Below, piece after piece: positions 33,392 to 42,515 of a DNA stretch of 42,515 bases. The notes under the pieces were generated by a model that worked only from the letters and a program-made list of their open reading frames with translations, had not been told where the DNA came from and did no database searches. Positions within the stretch are counted from its first letter, which is position 1; the number at the start of each line of letters is the position of its first letter. The stretch covers positions 1-42,515 of the forward strand of contig JAUYSB010000180.1 of assembly GCA_030696525.1 (NCBI GenBank), in the 5' to 3' direction. The stretch is from Hydrogenophaga sp. Lineage in GTDB: Bacteria > Pseudomonadota > Gammaproteobacteria > Burkholderiales > Burkholderiaceae_C. The position numbers were made by a program, and so were the translations under genes.

Positions 33392-35254
33392 ATGACCGCG
33401 ACCACACCCCACACCATTCCTCAGGCTCTGAGCCGGCACCGTGTGCTGGCCCAGTTGGCGTCCGCCACCCTTGACACGCTGGCCAGCCAGGCCACCCAGA
33501 GCCAGCACGCGGCGGGCGAGCTGGTGGCGGCACCCGGGCAGCTGGCCGAGCAGCTCTGGCTGGTGGTGGCTGGTGCGGTGCGCCTGGAAGACCCCGAACA
33601 CGGCTGGCAGCTCACGTTGCAGGCGGGCGACTGGCTCGGTGCCGGTGTGTCCAGCCCCTCGGCCCAGCTGCAGGCGCAGGTGATCGCCGTCACCGCAGCC
33701 GAGCTGTTGGCTTTGCCACTGGCAGCCGTGGTGGCCGCCAGCGCCAGCGAGCCCACGCTGGCCAGCCAATTGGGTGCGCTGCCACCGGCCGCGCCGGGTC
33801 ACGGCCTGCACCGGGTGCACAACGACCCCGCCATGAACCTGCTGGCCACGCCCATGCGCAGCCTGCTCAAGCGCGAGCCCATCGTCGCGCCGCCCACCGC
33901 CACCATCCGCGAGGTGGCCACCATCATGGCCACGCAGCGCGCGTCCTCTGTGCTGCTGATCGAACAAGAGCTGCTGTTCGGCATTGTCACCGACCGCGAC
34001 CTGCGCAACCGCGTGGTGGCGCACGGGCTGGACATCGATCGCCCGGCGGCCGACATCGCCACCCTGGCGCCACTCACCGTGCAGGCCCGCAGCCCGGCCT
34101 TCGAGGCCTTGTTGCTGATGGCGCGCCACAATATCCACCACCTGCCGGTGATGGACGGCCAGCGCATTCTGGGCATGGTCACCGCCACCGACCTGACCGA
34201 ACAGCACAGCACCTCGGCCGTCTACCTGGCCAGCGACATCTACAAACAATCCAGCATCGAAGGCCTGGCCGCCGTGAGCGCGCGCGTCAAACGCCTGCAG
34301 CGCCACCTGGCCGCAGCCGACGCCAGCGCCTACAGCACGGGCCACATCGTCACCACCATCACCGATGCGCTGACCACGCGCCTTATCCATCTGGCCGAAG
34401 CGCAACTGGGCCCGGCGCCAGTGGACTATGTGTGGGTGGCGGCGGGCTCTCAGGCGCGCAGCGAACAGACCGCCAAAAGCGACCAGGACAACTGCCTGGT
34501 GCTCGACGATGCCTATGACGAGGCCCAACACGGCGACTACTTCCGTGCCTTTTCCAAGTTTGTGTGTGACGGCCTGGACGCCTGTGGCTACATCCACTGC
34601 CCCGGCGAGATGATGGCCATGACCGACCAGTGGCGCCAGCCGCTGGCGCGCTGGCGGCGCTACTTCCGCCAATGGGTGGAGCAGCCCGACCCGACCGCGC
34701 TGATGCTGACCTGCGTGTTTTTTGATCTGCGTGCGGTGGCCGGCAACACCGCCCTGCTCGACGGCCTGCGCCGCGAGGTGCTGAGCGAAACCCACGGCAA
34801 CACCTTGTTCCTGGCGCACATGGTGGGCAACGCCCTCAAACACCGCCCGCCGCTGGGCCTGTTCGGCCAGATTTCACCCATGCGCGGCGGCGAACACAGC
34901 GGCTGCATCGACCTCAAACACAACGGCATCGTGCCCATCGTCGATCTGGCGCGGGTGTACGCGCTGGCCGGCGGGCTGGACGCGGTCAATTCGCACGACC
35001 GGCTGGAGCAGGCCGCCCACGCTGGCGAAATCAGCGACGACAGCGCCCGCGACCTGCGCGATGCGCTGGAGTCGCTGGGCGAGATCCGCATCGCCCACCA
35101 GGCGCGGCAGATCGAACGCGGTGTGCCGCCCGACAACTTCCTGCGCCTGGACGACCTGAGCAACGTCGAGCGCGCCCACCTCAAATCGGCCTTTGCCGTG
35201 GTTCAGCGCCTGCAAACGGTGCTGGGCACGCGCTACCAGGGCGGCAGGTTCTGA
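33392..35254 (+). CDS. cNMP-binding-like / CBS pair / DUF294 nucleotidyltransferase protein
   Basis: N-terminal Crp-like beta region, CBS repeats (IVTDRDLRNRVVAHG, ILGMVTATDLTE), NTase motif GSQARSEQTAKSDQD at 34445-34489, DUF294_C-like C-terminus. Confidence 0.92.
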   Translation: MTATTPHTIPQALSRHRVLAQLASATLDTLASQATQSQHAAGELVAAPGQLAEQLWLVVAGAVRLEDPEHGWQLTLQAGDWLGAGVSSPSAQLQAQVIAVTAAELLALPLAAVVAASASEPTLASQLGALPPAAPGHGLHRVHNDPAMNLLATPMRSLLKREPIVAPPTATIREVATIMATQRASSVLLIEQELLFGIVTDRDLRNRVVAHGLDIDRPAADIATLAPLTVQARSPAFEALLLMARHNIHHLPVMDGQRILGMVTATDLTEQHSTSAVYLASDIYKQSSIEGLAAVSARVKRLQRHLAAADASAYSTGHIVTTITDALTTRLIHLAEAQLGPAPVDYVWVAAGSQARSEQTAKSDQDNCLVLDDAYDEAQHGDYFRAFSKFVCDGLDACGYIHCPGEMMAMTDQWRQPLARWRRYFRQWVEQPDPTALMLTCVFFDLRAVAGNTALLDGLRREVLSETHGNTLFLAHMVGNALKHRPPLGLFGQISPMRGGEHSGCIDLKHNGIVPIVDLARVYALAGGLDAVNSHDRLEQAAHAGEISDDSARDLRDALESLGEIRIAHQARQIERGVPPDNFLRLDDLSNVERAHLKSAFAVVQRLQTVLGTRYQGGRF

Positions 35255-35255
35255 C

Positions 35256-37424
35256 TCAGTATTTGAGCCGCGCGTAGTAGGTTTTCTCGGCCGCCTCGCG
35301 CGCCTGGCGCAGCGTGTGAATGCCGCGCTCGCGCAGCAGCGGCAGCAGGCGCAGCAGCACCTCGGCGGTCACGAACGCGTCGCCCAGCGCGGTGTGGCGC
35401 CCCAGCACGGTGATGTCGAAACGCTCGGCAATGGCCTCCAGGCGGTGCGAGTCCTGGCTGGGCTGGGCCACGGCAGAGAGCAGCAAGGTGTCGAGCACCG
35501 GCTGTTTGAAACTCAGGCCTGTGCGGCCTTCGAGCAGCTGCAGAAACTTCATGTCGAAGGCGGCGTTGTGGGCCACCAGCACGGTGTCCTGCGCAAAGGC
35601 ATGGAACGAGGGCAACACGGCGGTGATGGCGGGCTGACCGCGCACCATGACGTCGGTGATGCCGTGGATGGGAATGGAGGCAGCCGGAATCGGCTTGCCG
35701 GGGTCCACCAGCTGCTCGAAGCTCTCTTGCCGCAACAACCGACCGTTGACGATGCGGGTGGCGCCGATCTGGATGATCTCGTCGCCCTGCGAGGGGTTGA
35801 GGCCCGTGGTTTCGGTGTCGAACACGGTGTAGGTCAGCTCGGTCAGCGGCACGTCGTCGAGGTCGCTGGAAATGCCGCGCACGCTGAAAAGATCGAAGTC
35901 GTAGTACTCGGGCCGGCTCTCGTGCTGGCCCACCATGGCCGCATCGGCGCCCTCCTGGGCGCTGGCCTGTGGCAGCAGAAAGCGGAAAAACGCCTGCGCG
36001 CGTGCGCGCTCGCGCTCGAACCACATCTCCCCGCTGTGGCGGTCCACCACGTCGCGCACGCTCAGGGGCAGCGTGTCGGCGCCCAGGCGCATGGGGTCCA
36101 TCTCCCAGCTCATCACGGTTTCGGTGCTCATGGCTGCACCCGTCCACATCAGATCGAGCTGCACCCGCCCGCCGGCCGATTGCGCACGCAAGGCCACAAA
36201 CGAGAGGTCGAACTCGTCGCGCAGCCGCTGCGACAGGTAGGCCAGCGCCTGCAGCAGGATGAAGCTGTCCACCCGCATCCACAGGCCGGCTTCCACGTCC
36301 TCGACCACCACCTTGAAACCGCAGTGCGCCTCGATGCGGCGCTGCGCGGCGGTGACCAGGTCGGCGGCCAGCATTTCCTCCATCGGCCAGCGCGTCTTGA
36401 GGCCTTCGGCGGCGCGCTGCACGCTGTCGTTCAGGCGCGTGGTCATGGTGCGCACCTCGTCGCGCACCACGGCCAGAAAACGCTCGCGCATGGCGGGCTC
36501 CAGGTCGTCGTAGCCCAGCATGTCCACCGCCGCCTGGATGTTGGCCAGGGCCGAACGGCTGCCGTCGGTCAGGCTTTGCAGGGTCTGGTCGCGCTGGGCT
36601 TCTTCCTCGAAGTGGCGCGTCACGTTGTCCAGCATCAGCACAAAACCGGCCAGCGGCGCCTGCGCGTCGTTGGCGCCCACCTGCCCAACCGGTGCCATCT
36701 GCACCTTGAGCAACTGGCCCGAGCGGGTGGTGGTGATGAACTGGGCCGAAGGCTGGGCCGCGCCGCGCGCGCGCCGCTCCTGAATGCGCTCCAGCGCATG
36801 GGCCACCAGCTGGCGGTCGAACACGCCGTAGATGGAGCGGCCGATGCCGATCAGCTCGGCGCCGTCGGCCAGCGTGGGCGCCTGCGACAGCGCGCGGAAC
36901 TGCAGCCGCGCGCGGTTGTTGTAGAGCAGGATGCGGCCGTCGAGGTTGCACACCACCACGCTTTGGGTCAGCTCGGCCATGAGTGCGGCCAGGCGGTTCT
37001 TTTCCTGCTGCACGCCCTGGCTGGCCTGTTCGATCTGAGCCGCCACGTCACCGCGCAAGGCCTCGCGCTGGTCGGCCAGGTCGTTGATGGCGCGCGAGAG
37101 TTCGACCAGGCCGACGTCGTCCTCGACAGGCAGGCGCTTGCCGAAGGCGCCGCCCAGCATGCCGCGCACCTGCTCGGCCAGACGCTGCGGCGCGCCGATG
37201 TGGCGGCTGTGCACCCGTTGCCAGACAGCCCACCAAGCGATGGCCGCCAGCACCCAGGCCATCACCAGCAGCGCCACGCGCGGCGACAGCAGCTCGGCGA
37301 CCAGGGTTTGTTCCTGCGGCTCCAGCGTGGACCACAACATGCCCAGCGTGAGCGCCAGCCAGGCGCCCAGCGCCAGCACGCCGCCGGCCACCCCCAGCCA
37401 CAGCGCCTTTTGGCTTGCTTTCAT
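35256..37424 (-). CDS. Membrane-anchored PAS/degenerate histidine-kinase protein fused to a C-terminal DEDDh (DnaQ-type) 3'-5' exonuclease
   Basis: Two N-terminal TM helices, HAMP-like, PAS-like (VVVCNLDGRILLYNNRARLQF), HK-like core lacking the His box, then FDTETTGL / HNAAFDMKF / HTALGD (Exo I, II, III). Confidence 0.9.
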   Translation of the reverse strand: MKASQKALWLGVAGGVLALGAWLALTLGMLWSTLEPQEQTLVAELLSPRVALLVMAWVLAAIAWWAVWQRVHSRHIGAPQRLAEQVRGMLGGAFGKRLPVEDDVGLVELSRAINDLADQREALRGDVAAQIEQASQGVQQEKNRLAALMAELTQSVVVCNLDGRILLYNNRARLQFRALSQAPTLADGAELIGIGRSIYGVFDRQLVAHALERIQERRARGAAQPSAQFITTTRSGQLLKVQMAPVGQVGANDAQAPLAGFVLMLDNVTRHFEEEAQRDQTLQSLTDGSRSALANIQAAVDMLGYDDLEPAMRERFLAVVRDEVRTMTTRLNDSVQRAAEGLKTRWPMEEMLAADLVTAAQRRIEAHCGFKVVVEDVEAGLWMRVDSFILLQALAYLSQRLRDEFDLSFVALRAQSAGGRVQLDLMWTGAAMSTETVMSWEMDPMRLGADTLPLSVRDVVDRHSGEMWFERERARAQAFFRFLLPQASAQEGADAAMVGQHESRPEYYDFDLFSVRGISSDLDDVPLTELTYTVFDTETTGLNPSQGDEIIQIGATRIVNGRLLRQESFEQLVDPGKPIPAASIPIHGITDVMVRGQPAITAVLPSFHAFAQDTVLVAHNAAFDMKFLQLLEGRTGLSFKQPVLDTLLLSAVAQPSQDSHRLEAIAERFDITVLGRHTALGDAFVTAEVLLRLLPLLRERGIHTLRQAREAAEKTYYARLKY

Positions 37425-37801
37425 CCGGCCGCCCCCAGCATTTCGGCCACCTTCAACACCAGCTCGCGGGTGGAAAAGGGTTTGGTCATGTAGGCGTTGG
37501 CGCCCAGCGCCAGGCCTTTGGCCACGTCGGTTTCGCGGCCGCGCGCGGTCAGCATCAGGATGGGTGTGGCTTCCACGCCGGCTGTGGCGCGCACCGCCTG
37601 GCAGACCTCAAAACCGGTCTTGTGCGGCATCATCACGTCGAGCAGCACGAGGTCAGGGTGTTCGCGGGTGATGGCGTCCAGCGCCTCCTGGCCGTCGCGC
37701 GCCACCACCACCTGGTAGCCCTCGCGTTTGAGCAGGTACTCCAGCGAAATCACGATGTTGGGCTCGTCGTCGGCGACCAGAATTTTGTGTGTTGTGCTCA
37801 T
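37421..37801 (-). CDS. Stand-alone CheY-like response regulator receiver protein
   Basis: 126 aa MSTTHKILVADDEPNIVISLEYLLKREGYQVVVARDGQEAL...DLVLLDVMMPHKTGFEV...YMTKPF; no output domain. The track start at 39793 is an artefact; true start overlaps the kinase stop (ATGA). Confidence 0.92.
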   Translation of the reverse strand: MSTTHKILVADDEPNIVISLEYLLKREGYQVVVARDGQEALDAITREHPDLVLLDVMMPHKTGFEVCQAVRATAGVEATPILMLTARGRETDVAKGLALGANAYMTKPFSTRELVLKVAEMLGAAG

Positions 37802-40542
37802 GAAGCGTCTCCCGCTGCGTGGGTATCTGTTTGACGGTGGGACCAGGGCAGGCTGAAGCAGAAGCAGGCGCCGGCCTCGCCGGCGTCCAGCCACAACCGG
37901 CCCCCAAAGTGCTCGACGATCTGGCGGCTGATGGGCAGGCCCAGGCCGGTGCCCTGCGGCCGGTTGGCGGCGTCGCCGCCCTGGCGGAATTTCTCGAAGA
38001 TCAGGCCCTGCTGCGCCGCCGGCACGCCCGGGCCGTTGTCCTGCACGCGCACGGTCAGGCCTTGCGCGTCGCTGGCCAGGCTCAATACCACCTGGCCGCC
38101 GGGCACGGGCACAAACTTGGCGGCGTTGGAGAGCAGGTTGAGCAGCACCTGGGTCAGGCGGTCGGGGTCGGCCATCAGCGTGGGCACCTCGGTCGGCAGG
38201 TCCAGCGTGAGGCGGCACTGGCGCTCGCGGAACAGCTCTGCGGTGGTGGTGGCGGCCTGCTCCACCAGCGCGCGCATGTCCACGGGGCTGTTGTGCCATT
38301 CGGCGTGGCCCGATTCGATTTTGGCCATGTCCAGCACCTGGTTGACCAGGCGCGAGAGGCGCTCGGTTTCGCTCACGATGATGCCGACAAACTGCTGGCG
38401 CTGCGGCGCGTCCATCTCGACGTCGTCGCGCATGAGTTCGGCCAGTGCGCGGATGGAGGTCAGCGGCGTGCGCAACTCGTGCGTCACGGACGACATGAAG
38501 TCGTCCTTCAAGCGGTCCAGGCTCTTGAGCTGTTCGTTGGCGCGGCGCAGTTCCTCGGTGGCGCGCTCCAGCGAACGCGACTTGTCCTCCAGCTCGCGCG
38601 AATAGGCGCGCAGCTGCGAGCTTTCGTCGAGGATGCGTAGCACGTCGTCGGGCGAGAGGGCTTCTTCCTCGGCCACCGAGGCCACCAGCACCCGCGCCGA
38701 GGCGCTGCCCACCGCGCCCGCCAACTGGGTTTCCACAAAAGACACAAAACGCGGGTCGGCCTGCAGCTGCGCGGTGTCGCGCAGGCCGTGCTCGCGTGCG
38801 TACCGCGCCCACAACAGGGACGTGTGGCTGGCGCCCAGAAAACGCTGGCACAGCTTGTGCAAATCGGCCACGCTGGCGCGGCCCTGCCAGAACACCGGGT
38901 CGCGGCTGGCGGTGCGCTTGAACACGTCCACGAACAGCATGGCCTGACTGGCTTCCTGGCCCGAAGGCGGGCGCCACAGCGACACGCCCACATACACCCC
39001 GGTGTTGACCAGCAGGCTCCAGAACAGCGCGTGGGTCAGGCTGTCCAGCCCTTGCAGGCCCAGCAACTGTTCGGGCCGCAGCAGGGCCAGGCCCCAGGCG
39101 CCGTGCTGGATGAAGCCGGCATCCATCCAGCCCGATTTGGCGATCGACGGCAGCATGAGCGTGTAGCCCCACATCAGGAAACCCGCCAGCAGCCCGGCCA
39201 GCGCCGCGCGCTGGGTGCCGCCCTTCCAGTACAGGCCGCCCAGCACGGCGGGCGCAAACTGGGCCACGGCGGCAAAACTTATGAGGCCGATGCTGACCAG
39301 GGCGTAGGCCTCGCCCGCGATGTGGAAGTAGGCGTAGCCCAGCAGCAGGATGCCCAGGATGGCGGCGCGGCGTATGCCCAGCAGCACGCGCGTGAGATCG
39401 GCGCCGGCGCTGTTGCGCCAGTGGCCGCTGCGCAGCAGCCAGGGCAGCACCAGTTCGTTGCAGACCATGGTGGAGACGGCAATCGCCTCGACGATGACCA
39501 TGCCGGTGGCTGCCGACAGCCCGCCGATGAAGACGAACAGCGCCAGCGCCGACTGCCCCGCCGCCAGCGGCAGCGACATGACGAAGTTCTCGGCCCCGCT
39601 GGCGCTGCCAAAGTACAGCAGGCCGCCCACCGCGATCGGCAACACAAACAGGTTGATCAGCAGCAGGTAGAGCGGGAACACCCAGGCCGCGCGGCGCAGG
39701 TGGTTTTCGTGCACGTTCTCCACCACCATGACCTGAAACTGGCGCGGCAGCAGCAGCACCGACAACATGGACAAGAGCGTGAGCGCAAACCACTGCGTCC
39801 AGGCAAAGGGTGTGCCCTGCTCCAGCCGCAGCAGGCGGGCGATGTCGGGCACGGCGCGGGCGCGGGCAAACAGGTCTTGCAGGCCGTCAAACAGGCCGTA
39901 GACCACAAACAGGCCCACCGCCAGAAAGGCCACCAGCTTGACCACGGACTCGAACGCGATGGCCGCCACCAGGCCCTCGTGGCGTTCGGTGCTGTCGAGG
40001 TGGCGGGCGCCAAACACCATGGTGAAACCGGCCAGGGCGAGTGCGATGTAGAAGGTGCTGTCGCTGCTCCAGTGCGGCGCGGCGGTGCTGGCGCTGCCCG
40101 AGGTGAGCAGTGCGTAGCCGGCCGAGATGGCTTTGAGCTGCAGCGCGATGTAGGGAATGATGCCCACCAGCGCGATCAGCGTGACCAGGCCCGCGAGCAG
40201 GTGGCTTTTGCCGTAGCGGCTGCCGATGAAGTCGGCGATCGATGTGATGCGGTAGGTTTTGGCGATGCGCACGATCTTGCGCAGCACCAGCCAGCCCAGC
40301 ACCATGGCCAGTGTGGGCCCGAGGTAGATGGGCAAAAACCACACACCACCGGTGGCCGCGCGCCCCACGCTGCCGAAATAGGTCCAGGCGGTGCAGTACA
40401 CCGCCATCGACAGCGAATAGGTCCAGGGGTTGGCGATCAGCGAGCGGCCCTGTGCGGCACGGCGGTCACCCAGGTGGGCCACCGCAAACAGCAGCAGCAG
40501 GTAGGCAAACGAGGCGGCAAAAACCAGGGCGGGCGACAACAT
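37798..40542 (-). CDS. SLC5/SSSF sodium:solute symporter-type sensor histidine kinase (CrbS-like, likely STAC linker)
   Basis: 914 aa: about 13 TM symporter domain from MLSPALVFAASFAYLLLLF, linker, H-box SVTHELRTPLTSI (HELRTPL codons at 38461-38481), N-box LLNLLSNAAKF, G-box VQDNGPGVP. Confidence 0.93.
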   Translation of the reverse strand: MLSPALVFAASFAYLLLLFAVAHLGDRRAAQGRSLIANPWTYSLSMAVYCTAWTYFGSVGRAATGGVWFLPIYLGPTLAMVLGWLVLRKIVRIAKTYRITSIADFIGSRYGKSHLLAGLVTLIALVGIIPYIALQLKAISAGYALLTSGSASTAAPHWSSDSTFYIALALAGFTMVFGARHLDSTERHEGLVAAIAFESVVKLVAFLAVGLFVVYGLFDGLQDLFARARAVPDIARLLRLEQGTPFAWTQWFALTLLSMLSVLLLPRQFQVMVVENVHENHLRRAAWVFPLYLLLINLFVLPIAVGGLLYFGSASGAENFVMSLPLAAGQSALALFVFIGGLSAATGMVIVEAIAVSTMVCNELVLPWLLRSGHWRNSAGADLTRVLLGIRRAAILGILLLGYAYFHIAGEAYALVSIGLISFAAVAQFAPAVLGGLYWKGGTQRAALAGLLAGFLMWGYTLMLPSIAKSGWMDAGFIQHGAWGLALLRPEQLLGLQGLDSLTHALFWSLLVNTGVYVGVSLWRPPSGQEASQAMLFVDVFKRTASRDPVFWQGRASVADLHKLCQRFLGASHTSLLWARYAREHGLRDTAQLQADPRFVSFVETQLAGAVGSASARVLVASVAEEEALSPDDVLRILDESSQLRAYSRELEDKSRSLERATEELRRANEQLKSLDRLKDDFMSSVTHELRTPLTSIRALAELMRDDVEMDAPQRQQFVGIIVSETERLSRLVNQVLDMAKIESGHAEWHNSPVDMRALVEQAATTTAELFRERQCRLTLDLPTEVPTLMADPDRLTQVLLNLLSNAAKFVPVPGGQVVLSLASDAQGLTVRVQDNGPGVPAAQQGLIFEKFRQGGDAANRPQGTGLGLPISRQIVEHFGGRLWLDAGEAGACFCFSLPWSHRQTDTHAAGDAS

Positions 40543-41405: not shown

Positions 41406-42515
41406 TCAGTGAGCGCCATCCACCATCTTGGAGCCACGCGGGATGCGCACGGCTTCGACCATGGCCTGGATGTGGGCCGGTGGCTCCTTGGTGACCTTGT
41501 CCACCAGGAAGGCGACGAGGAAGTTCACCATTGCACCCACGGCACCAAAGGCTTCCGGCGTGATGCCGAAGAAGCTGTTCGGGCCGCCGATCATGTCGAC
41601 GAAGTCCGTGCCCTTGATGAAGAAGATGCCCTTGTGTGCGAACACGTAGAGCAGCGTGATCAGCAAACCAGCGGCCATGCCGGCCATGGCGCCTTCTTTG
41701 TTCATCTTCTTGGAGAAGATGCCCATCATGATGGCGGGGAACAGCGACGAGGCCGCGATACCGAAGGCCAGGGCCACCGTACCGGCCGCAAAGCCCGGCG
41801 GATTCAAGCCCAGGTAGCCCGAGATCACGATGGCCACGGCCATGGCGATCTTGCCCGCCAGCAGCTCGTTCTTCTCACTGATGTTGGGTGCAAACACACC
41901 CTTGACCAGGTCGTGCGACACGGCAGACGAAATCGCCATCAGCAGACCGGCCGCCGTGGACAGCGCCGCCGCCAGACCACCCGCCGCCACCAGCGCGATC
42001 ACCCAGTTGGGCAGCAGCGCGATTTCGGGGTTGGCCATCACGATGATGTCGGCGTTGACCGTCAGCTCGTTGCCTTTCCAGCCAGCGGCGTCGGCCTTGG
42101 CCTTGGCAGTGGCGTTGGTGGTCTTGTCGTTGTAGTACTGGATGCGGCCGTCACCGTTCTTGTCCTCGAACTTCAGCAGACCGGTCTTTTCCCAACGCTT
42201 CATCCAGTCCGGACGCTCTTCCGCCTTGAGGCTGGCCTCAGGTGCGTACAGGTCGGAGCCGGGTTTGACGGCGGTGTTGACAGTGGCGTGCAGGTTCAGC
42301 TTGGCCATGGCCGCCACAGCAGGTGCCGTGGTGTACAGGATGGCGATGAAGATCAGGGCCCAGCCAGCGGACGAACGTGCGTCTTTCACCGAAGGCACGG
42401 TGAAGAATCTCATGATGACGTGCGGCAGACCGGCGGTACCGATCATCAGCGACAGCGTGTACATGAACATGTTCAGCGTGCTGCCGGCGGTGGTGGTGGT
42501 GTACTTGCCAAAGCC
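41406..42515 (-). CDS. Sodium:solute symporter, VC_2705/acetate-type subfamily, 5' end beyond the window
   Basis: Open to the right edge: GFGKYTTTTAGSTLNMFMYTLSLMIGTAGLPHVIMRFFTVPSVKDARSSAGWALIFIAILY...; SSSF core and a soluble insert with DKNGDGRIQ. Confidence 0.9.
   Translation of the reverse strand, partial: GFGKYTTTTAGSTLNMFMYTLSLMIGTAGLPHVIMRFFTVPSVKDARSSAGWALIFIAILYTTAPAVAAMAKLNLHATVNTAVKPGSDLYAPEASLKAEERPDWMKRWEKTGLLKFEDKNGDGRIQYYNDKTTNATAKAKADAAGWKGNELTVNADIIVMANPEIALLPNWVIALVAAGGLAAALSTAAGLLMAISSAVSHDLVKGVFAPNISEKNELLAGKIAMAVAIVISGYLGLNPPGFAAGTVALAFGIAASSLFPAIMMGIFSKKMNKEGAMAGMAAGLLITLLYVFAHKGIFFIKGTDFVDMIGGPNSFFGITPEAFGAVGAMVNFLVAFLVDKVTKEPPAHIQAMVEAVRIPRGSKMVDGAH

Follow-up and report, generated by a model that had tools for sequence, protein, structure and literature searches.

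A pseudo-histidine-kinase fused to a DEDDh exonuclease in Hydrogenophaga and its genomic association with a receiver-only response regulator

Introduction

What might a histidine kinase that has lost its catalytic residues do when it is joined to an exonuclease? This question is raised by an open reading frame of 722 aa with an ATG start (35256..37424, minus strand) in the window, by which we mean the whole stretch of 42,515 nucleotides from Hydrogenophaga sp. that was analysed here. A sequence-only reading had described its product as a membrane pseudo-histidine-kinase fused to an apparently active DEDDh exonuclease, and had proposed that the dead kinase core may serve as a membrane sensor or a docking platform for a nuclease output, with RNA, nanoRNA, pGpG or ssDNA as candidate substrates. 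Taken separately, regulator-sensing pseudokinases, DEDDh exonucleases and the acetate cluster have all been described. In a literature search, with most subscription journals outside its scope, no description of a histidine kinase-exonuclease fusion was found. The same search, which is not proof, returned no description of a receiver-only regulator in the acetate cluster or of a nuclease as the output of a two-component pathway.

Domain architecture of the fusion protein

The 722-aa open reading frame is genuine, with full-length relatives in the same genus, and its assignment draws on family searches and an AlphaFold model as well. From the N- to the C-terminus the protein consists of two transmembrane (TM) helices, a HAMP/PAS region, a DHp- and CA-like pseudo-histidine-kinase, a conserved linker and a DEDDh exonuclease (all coordinates in this section are on the minus strand). 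The first predicted TM helix (approximately residues 7-33; 37326..37406) is a hydrophobic stretch that corresponds to helix 2-33 of the model. The second (approximately residues 50-72; 37209..37277; model helix 36-91) continues into a HAMP-like, coiled stretch, for which the family search gave a weak CovS-like HAMP match. The PAS-like domain (residues 145-267; 36624..36992) was assigned from PAS families found in 9-12 of 16 relatives and from profile alignment with 4i5s and 3a0r. It is followed by a DHp-like helical hairpin (residues 268-343; 36396..36623), which comprises helices 269-303 and 310-343 in the model, resembles the HK853 and DivL cores in Foldseek and carries Asp287 (36564..36566) in place of the phospho-acceptor His. 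The CA-like (HATPase_c-like) domain (35967..36389), recognised by profile, fold and conservation, lacks both the N-box Asn and the G1 box; its W-x-G motif, H463 and W468 are invariant. The core is connected to the exonuclease domain (35280..35843) by the conserved linker motif RPEYYDFDLF (35886..35915), which is retained in forms without the pseudokinase too.

A histidine kinase fold without kinase residues

The HisKA match of the window protein itself fell under the Pfam cutoff (E 0.13); HisKA was matched by five of the 16 relatives (best E 9e-5) and PAS_4 by 12. A profile of residues 130-528 made from these 16 relatives covered the whole PAS-DHp-CA region of VicK/CovS 4i5s (E 5e-14) and also matched ThkA and the pseudokinase DivL. 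The pLDDT of the AlphaFold model was 77.8 for the full protein and 87.4 for the DHp+CA core. Foldseek searches of the PDB with both AlphaFold models returned histidine kinase cores at a probability of 1.00, including HK853 complexed with RR468, DivL, RetS and ChpT. TM-scores against histidine kinases were approximately 0.5 because, on our reading of the high rmsd, the angle between the hairpin and the CA domain varies among structures. Profile and fold searches alike thus recovered the PAS-DHp-CA fold of a histidine kinase, and the kinase-like core claimed earlier is present.

The residues of a functional kinase are gone. When TDGSR is aligned to the H-box pattern x-H-E-L-R, Asp287 falls in the phospho-acceptor slot, and none of 155 relatives (0/155) has a His there; Asn is not among the common residues of the N-box region (columns 389-399), and WTGAAMST replaces the DxGxG of the G1 box. 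An ordinary kinase was therefore rejected as an explanation, His and Asn being absent from every relative. At the phospho-acceptor position the 155 relatives carry Glu (127), Asp (6) or other residues in the rest. An acidic residue thus replaces His in 133 of 155, possibly as a fixed mimic of the charged state.

The exonuclease domain retains its catalytic residues

RNase_T (Pfam) matched residues 534-690 (E 3e-33), and the domain aligned with the PolC exonuclease 2p1j (E 9e-32); Foldseek also supported the assignment. The DEDDh residues are present in order on an RNase_T fold, and D536, E538, D624, H677 and D682 show no variation among 155 distinct full-length relatives in any row that has a letter aligned. 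All three motifs reported by the sequence-only reading were found, HNAAFDMKF (35544-35570) and HTALGD (35379-35396) where it had placed them; FDTETTGL, given there as 35796-35822 (27 nt), in fact spans 35799-35822 (24 nt). From its residues, the C-terminus of the fusion is apparently a working DEDDh 3'-5' exonuclease.

Related domains occur in other settings. In L217 and L219 the same DEDDh exonuclease is fused C-terminally to an EamA/DMT-like multi-TM transporter, with no regulator nearby. L199 and L200 retain the pseudokinase architecture with a degenerate exonuclease that lacks the DEDD motifs, and no receiver gene was found within 1.5 kb of either.

Distribution and conservation of the family

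Within the genus, the majority of genomes encode a full-length relative with 58-64% identity. Whole-genome searches recovered the architecture in other orders and classes of the phylum as well, in one class in 26 of 48 genomes, and the 155 distinct full-length relatives are spread over several classes. Named relatives belong mostly to Polaromonas, Rhodoferax and Hydrogenophaga, which makes Comamonadaceae the probable source of the window. In the order of G514, two or three paralogs of the fusion are present in many genomes. Far from being a local oddity, the family is old and widespread in bacteria; with the architecture conserved across classes, a sequencing error or local decay was rejected.

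The ortholog survey that had been suggested earlier gave a consistent answer: in these 155 relatives the loss of His and Asn is coupled to retained DEDDh residues, intact H- and N-boxes were seen in none of those examined, and there was no conserved loss of the exonuclease residues. The anatomy is therefore conserved and not due to chance. R290, W427, G429, H463 and W468, together with the linker RPE[FY]YDFDLF, are nearly invariant over great divergence, and as these core positions are non-catalytic, the dead kinase is under selection. Forms without the pseudokinase also exist, namely TM-HAMP-PAS-linker-exonuclease, TM-linker-exonuclease, the exonuclease alone and the fusion to an EamA-like transporter.

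A receiver-only regulator and an acetate-type gene cluster adjoin the fusion

Directly upstream of the fusion lies a gene for a response regulator of 126 aa (37421..37801, minus strand; Response_reg E 2e-29) with D55, T85 and K107 intact. Conservation and tail lengths show that it stops at the end of the receiver domain, without an output domain. It overlaps the fusion gene by 4 nt, and ATGA overlaps at both regulator junctions join kinase, regulator and fusion. The kinase is a CrbS-like sodium/solute-symporter histidine kinase with canonical HisKA and HATPase_c (37798..40542, minus strand), in which the Pfam search found no match to the STAC model; from the operon order, it is likely to be the kinase for the receiver. 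The sequence-only reading had mentioned neither the regulator, nor this kinase, nor the acetate-type context. On the minus strand the genes run from an ActP-like sodium:solute symporter (41406..42470, running off the contig end) through two small membrane-protein ORFs to the CrbS-like kinase, the regulator and the fusion. A convergent gene for a putative cNMP/CBS/DUF294 nucleotidyltransferase, a homolog of PP_0354 (33392..35254, plus strand), ends 2 bp from the fusion. These three neighbours were assigned by family search, and the symporter and DUF294 genes are recurring members of the cluster.

The arrangement is conserved. Among 43 large loci from Burkholderiales and neighbours, the regulator was found in 41, the CrbS-like kinase in 40, DUF294 in 40 and an ActP-type symporter in 39. 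In other classes, where 17 loci were covered, the commonest neighbour was again the regulator (15/17), and the CrbS-like symporter-kinase was present in 9/17; the regulator stays beside the fusion across classes even where no CrbS-like kinase is nearby. In the adjacent regulator gene no LuxR-type DNA-binding output was found. At 37421-40542, then, the gene after the CrbS-like kinase encodes a receiver-only regulator; Pseudomonas and Vibrio rely instead on the LuxR-type CrbR. A role in anti-phage defence was considered and rejected: the PADLOC matches were to the generic DEDDh domain and to candidate-system models that share it, and the context is metabolic.

The link to carbon metabolism rests on Pseudomonas putida, in which PP_0353, a stand-alone homolog, shares an operon with PP_0354, a DUF294/CBS gene. 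The PP_0354 promoter is bound by ErdR (CrbR), the operon is under MxtR/ErdR (CrbS/R) control, and cells deleted for PP_0353 grow more slowly on pyruvate, a defect that was complemented; the authors speculate on mRNA decay (PMC9927547, PMC8402216).

The regulator is present only where the hairpin is present

The DHp hairpin was scored with its own profile at 250 loci, and the regulator was scored as present when directly upstream. It was found at 185 of 196 loci with the hairpin and at none of the 54 without it; the two thus occur together at 185 loci, the hairpin is alone at 11, both are missing at 54, and at no locus was the regulator found without the hairpin. The same holds within one family, where the regulator accompanies 26/28 hairpin-bearing and 0/38 hairpin-less proteins; the short forms of this family still adjoin DUF294 and ActP-type genes. 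In six proteins the CA-like part is kept and the hairpin is deleted or scrambled, and here the regulator is also absent; these do not count as six separate losses, since L174 and L175 share a genus and L173 might reflect an error in the sequence.

In trees from which the pseudokinase columns had been left out, the state of the hairpin switched 11-12 times, with 4-5 independent pairs on supported branches. In these pairs the regulator changed in the same direction or showed no difference, never the opposite, the same-way average being 3.8/4 and 4.7/5. With so few supported independent losses, a sign test gave p 0.06-0.125. Among the 11 loci with the hairpin only, two have an orthologous regulator approximately 5 kb away and two are second paralogs in genomes whose first paralog has an adjoining regulator; L024, L118, L128, L130 and L186 have no clear orthologous regulator, and L324 and L326 are the remainder. 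Mean-field DCA between receiver and hairpin (160 pairs, Meff 88) was underpowered and gave no clear pattern.

The joint presence and loss indicates that it is by way of the DHp hairpin that the regulator is important to the fusion. In true kinases this hairpin is the receiver docking site, and we therefore propose that the regulator docks on it. Of the two roles suggested at the outset, it is the docking platform that receives strong genomic support, the regulator being adjacent only where the hairpin is present.

Discussion

By analogy with known systems, we think it probable that the degenerate histidine kinase is a receiver-docking switch of a membrane-tethered DEDDh 3'-5' exonuclease that tunes acetate/pyruvate use. 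The CrbS-like symporter-kinase would phosphorylate the receiver-only regulator encoded alongside it, and the (phospho-)receiver would dock on the DHp-like hairpin much as DivK~P does on DivL. Once docked, it could, together with the PAS/TM region, alter the activity of the exonuclease or its access. The switch would act on the turnover of nucleic acids at the membrane and so tune the use of acetate and pyruvate, with RNA as a guessed substrate. That the adjacent regulator was retained, in every lineage examined, only together with the hairpin suggests that an acetate/pyruvate-linked signal may pass backwards through the dead kinase to control a nuclease. We tentatively extend this to a reversed two-component branch, conserved across several proteobacterial classes, in which the phosphorylated receiver-only regulator gates the membrane exonuclease via the dead kinase and acetate/pyruvate would thereby act on RNA/DNA turnover, not transcription.

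Against the docking switch stand the small number of supported independent losses and the loci, at least five, that retain the hairpin although no orthologous regulator was found. A further objection is the pseudokinase-less forms in the same cluster, from which it follows that the exonuclease can work without the pseudokinase. PAS-only exonucleases are also what one would expect if the DHp/CA remnant provided only dimerisation and a TM/PAS relay for the exonuclease, the regulator being a remnant of the ancestral operon with another target. Canonical DHp hairpins dimerise, and the CA-like part has been retained without its ATP-binding motifs, both of which favour this account; we nevertheless hold it to be unlikely, as it leaves unexplained the loss of the regulator whenever the hairpin is lost (0/54) and its retention across classes, even without a nearby CrbS-like kinase.

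The signal might instead flow the opposite way, with the pseudokinase sensing through its PAS/TM region and sequestering or stabilising a phosphorylated receiver that acts elsewhere, for example on the CrbS-like kinase, and with the exonuclease as a separate function. There is a precedent in DivL, which has a stabilising effect on DivK~P and a second kinase as its target (PMC5361649); L199 and L200, with their retained pseudokinase and degenerate exonuclease, also fit. However, neither of these loci has a regulator within the 1.5 kb examined, and the invariant catalytic residues of the exonuclease in 155 full-length relatives make this flow quite improbable. An ordinary DnaQ-type exonuclease joined to a decaying, functionless kinase would fit the stand-alone and TM-only versions (L198, L213, L214), but the conservation of R290, W427, G429, H463, W468 and the linker DF over great divergence, and the association of the core with the regulator, which shows selection on the core, render it very improbable indeed.

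Whether signal flow is reversed via a pseudokinase in other two-component systems too was a question raised by the authors of the DivL study (PMC5361649). The fusion family provides natural examples by the hundred, in which the partner gene is defined and the docking module has been deleted repeatedly, and its enzymatic output makes reversed signalling testable by assay. If true, the docking switch would also explain the presence of an exonuclease among acetate/pyruvate genes, reported but unexplained in Pseudomonas (PMC9927547).

Comparison with known systems

The exonuclease shares its fold and all catalytic residues with those of PolC, DinG and Pol III epsilon, but it has no polymerase or helicase partner and is membrane-anchored with a signalling region. 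The TM-HAMP-PAS-DHp-CA order is that of VicK/WalK, ThkA and HK853; unlike these, the fusion lacks the His, the N-box Asn and the G1 box and has a C-terminal exonuclease. The surroundings recall CrbS/CrbR (MxtR/ErdR), where a CrbS-like symporter-kinase, DUF294-CBS, the ActP symporter and a PP_0353-type DEDDh exonuclease co-occur (PMC9927547) and CrbR is a LuxR-type DNA-binding regulator (PMC9100948). In the window, by contrast, the regulator that comes after the kinase has a receiver domain only, and a TM-PAS-pseudokinase is attached to the exonuclease.

The closest likeness is to DivL-DivK of Caulobacter, a histidine kinase fold without the phospho-acceptor His and with a single-domain regulator as partner. 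DivL binds DivK~P without altering DivK phosphorylation, the regulator being the source of the signal and the pseudokinase its recipient (PMC5361649). With its histidine kinase fold, lost catalysis and a single-domain partner assigned by genomic association, the fusion would count as a DivL-type pseudokinase. The two differ in that His is replaced by Tyr in DivL and by Glu/Asp in the fusion family, and in that the regulator gene of the fusion is adjacent and overlapping, unlike that of DivL-DivK. The output of DivL is another kinase, CckA, whereas the pseudokinase of the fusion carries a nuclease.
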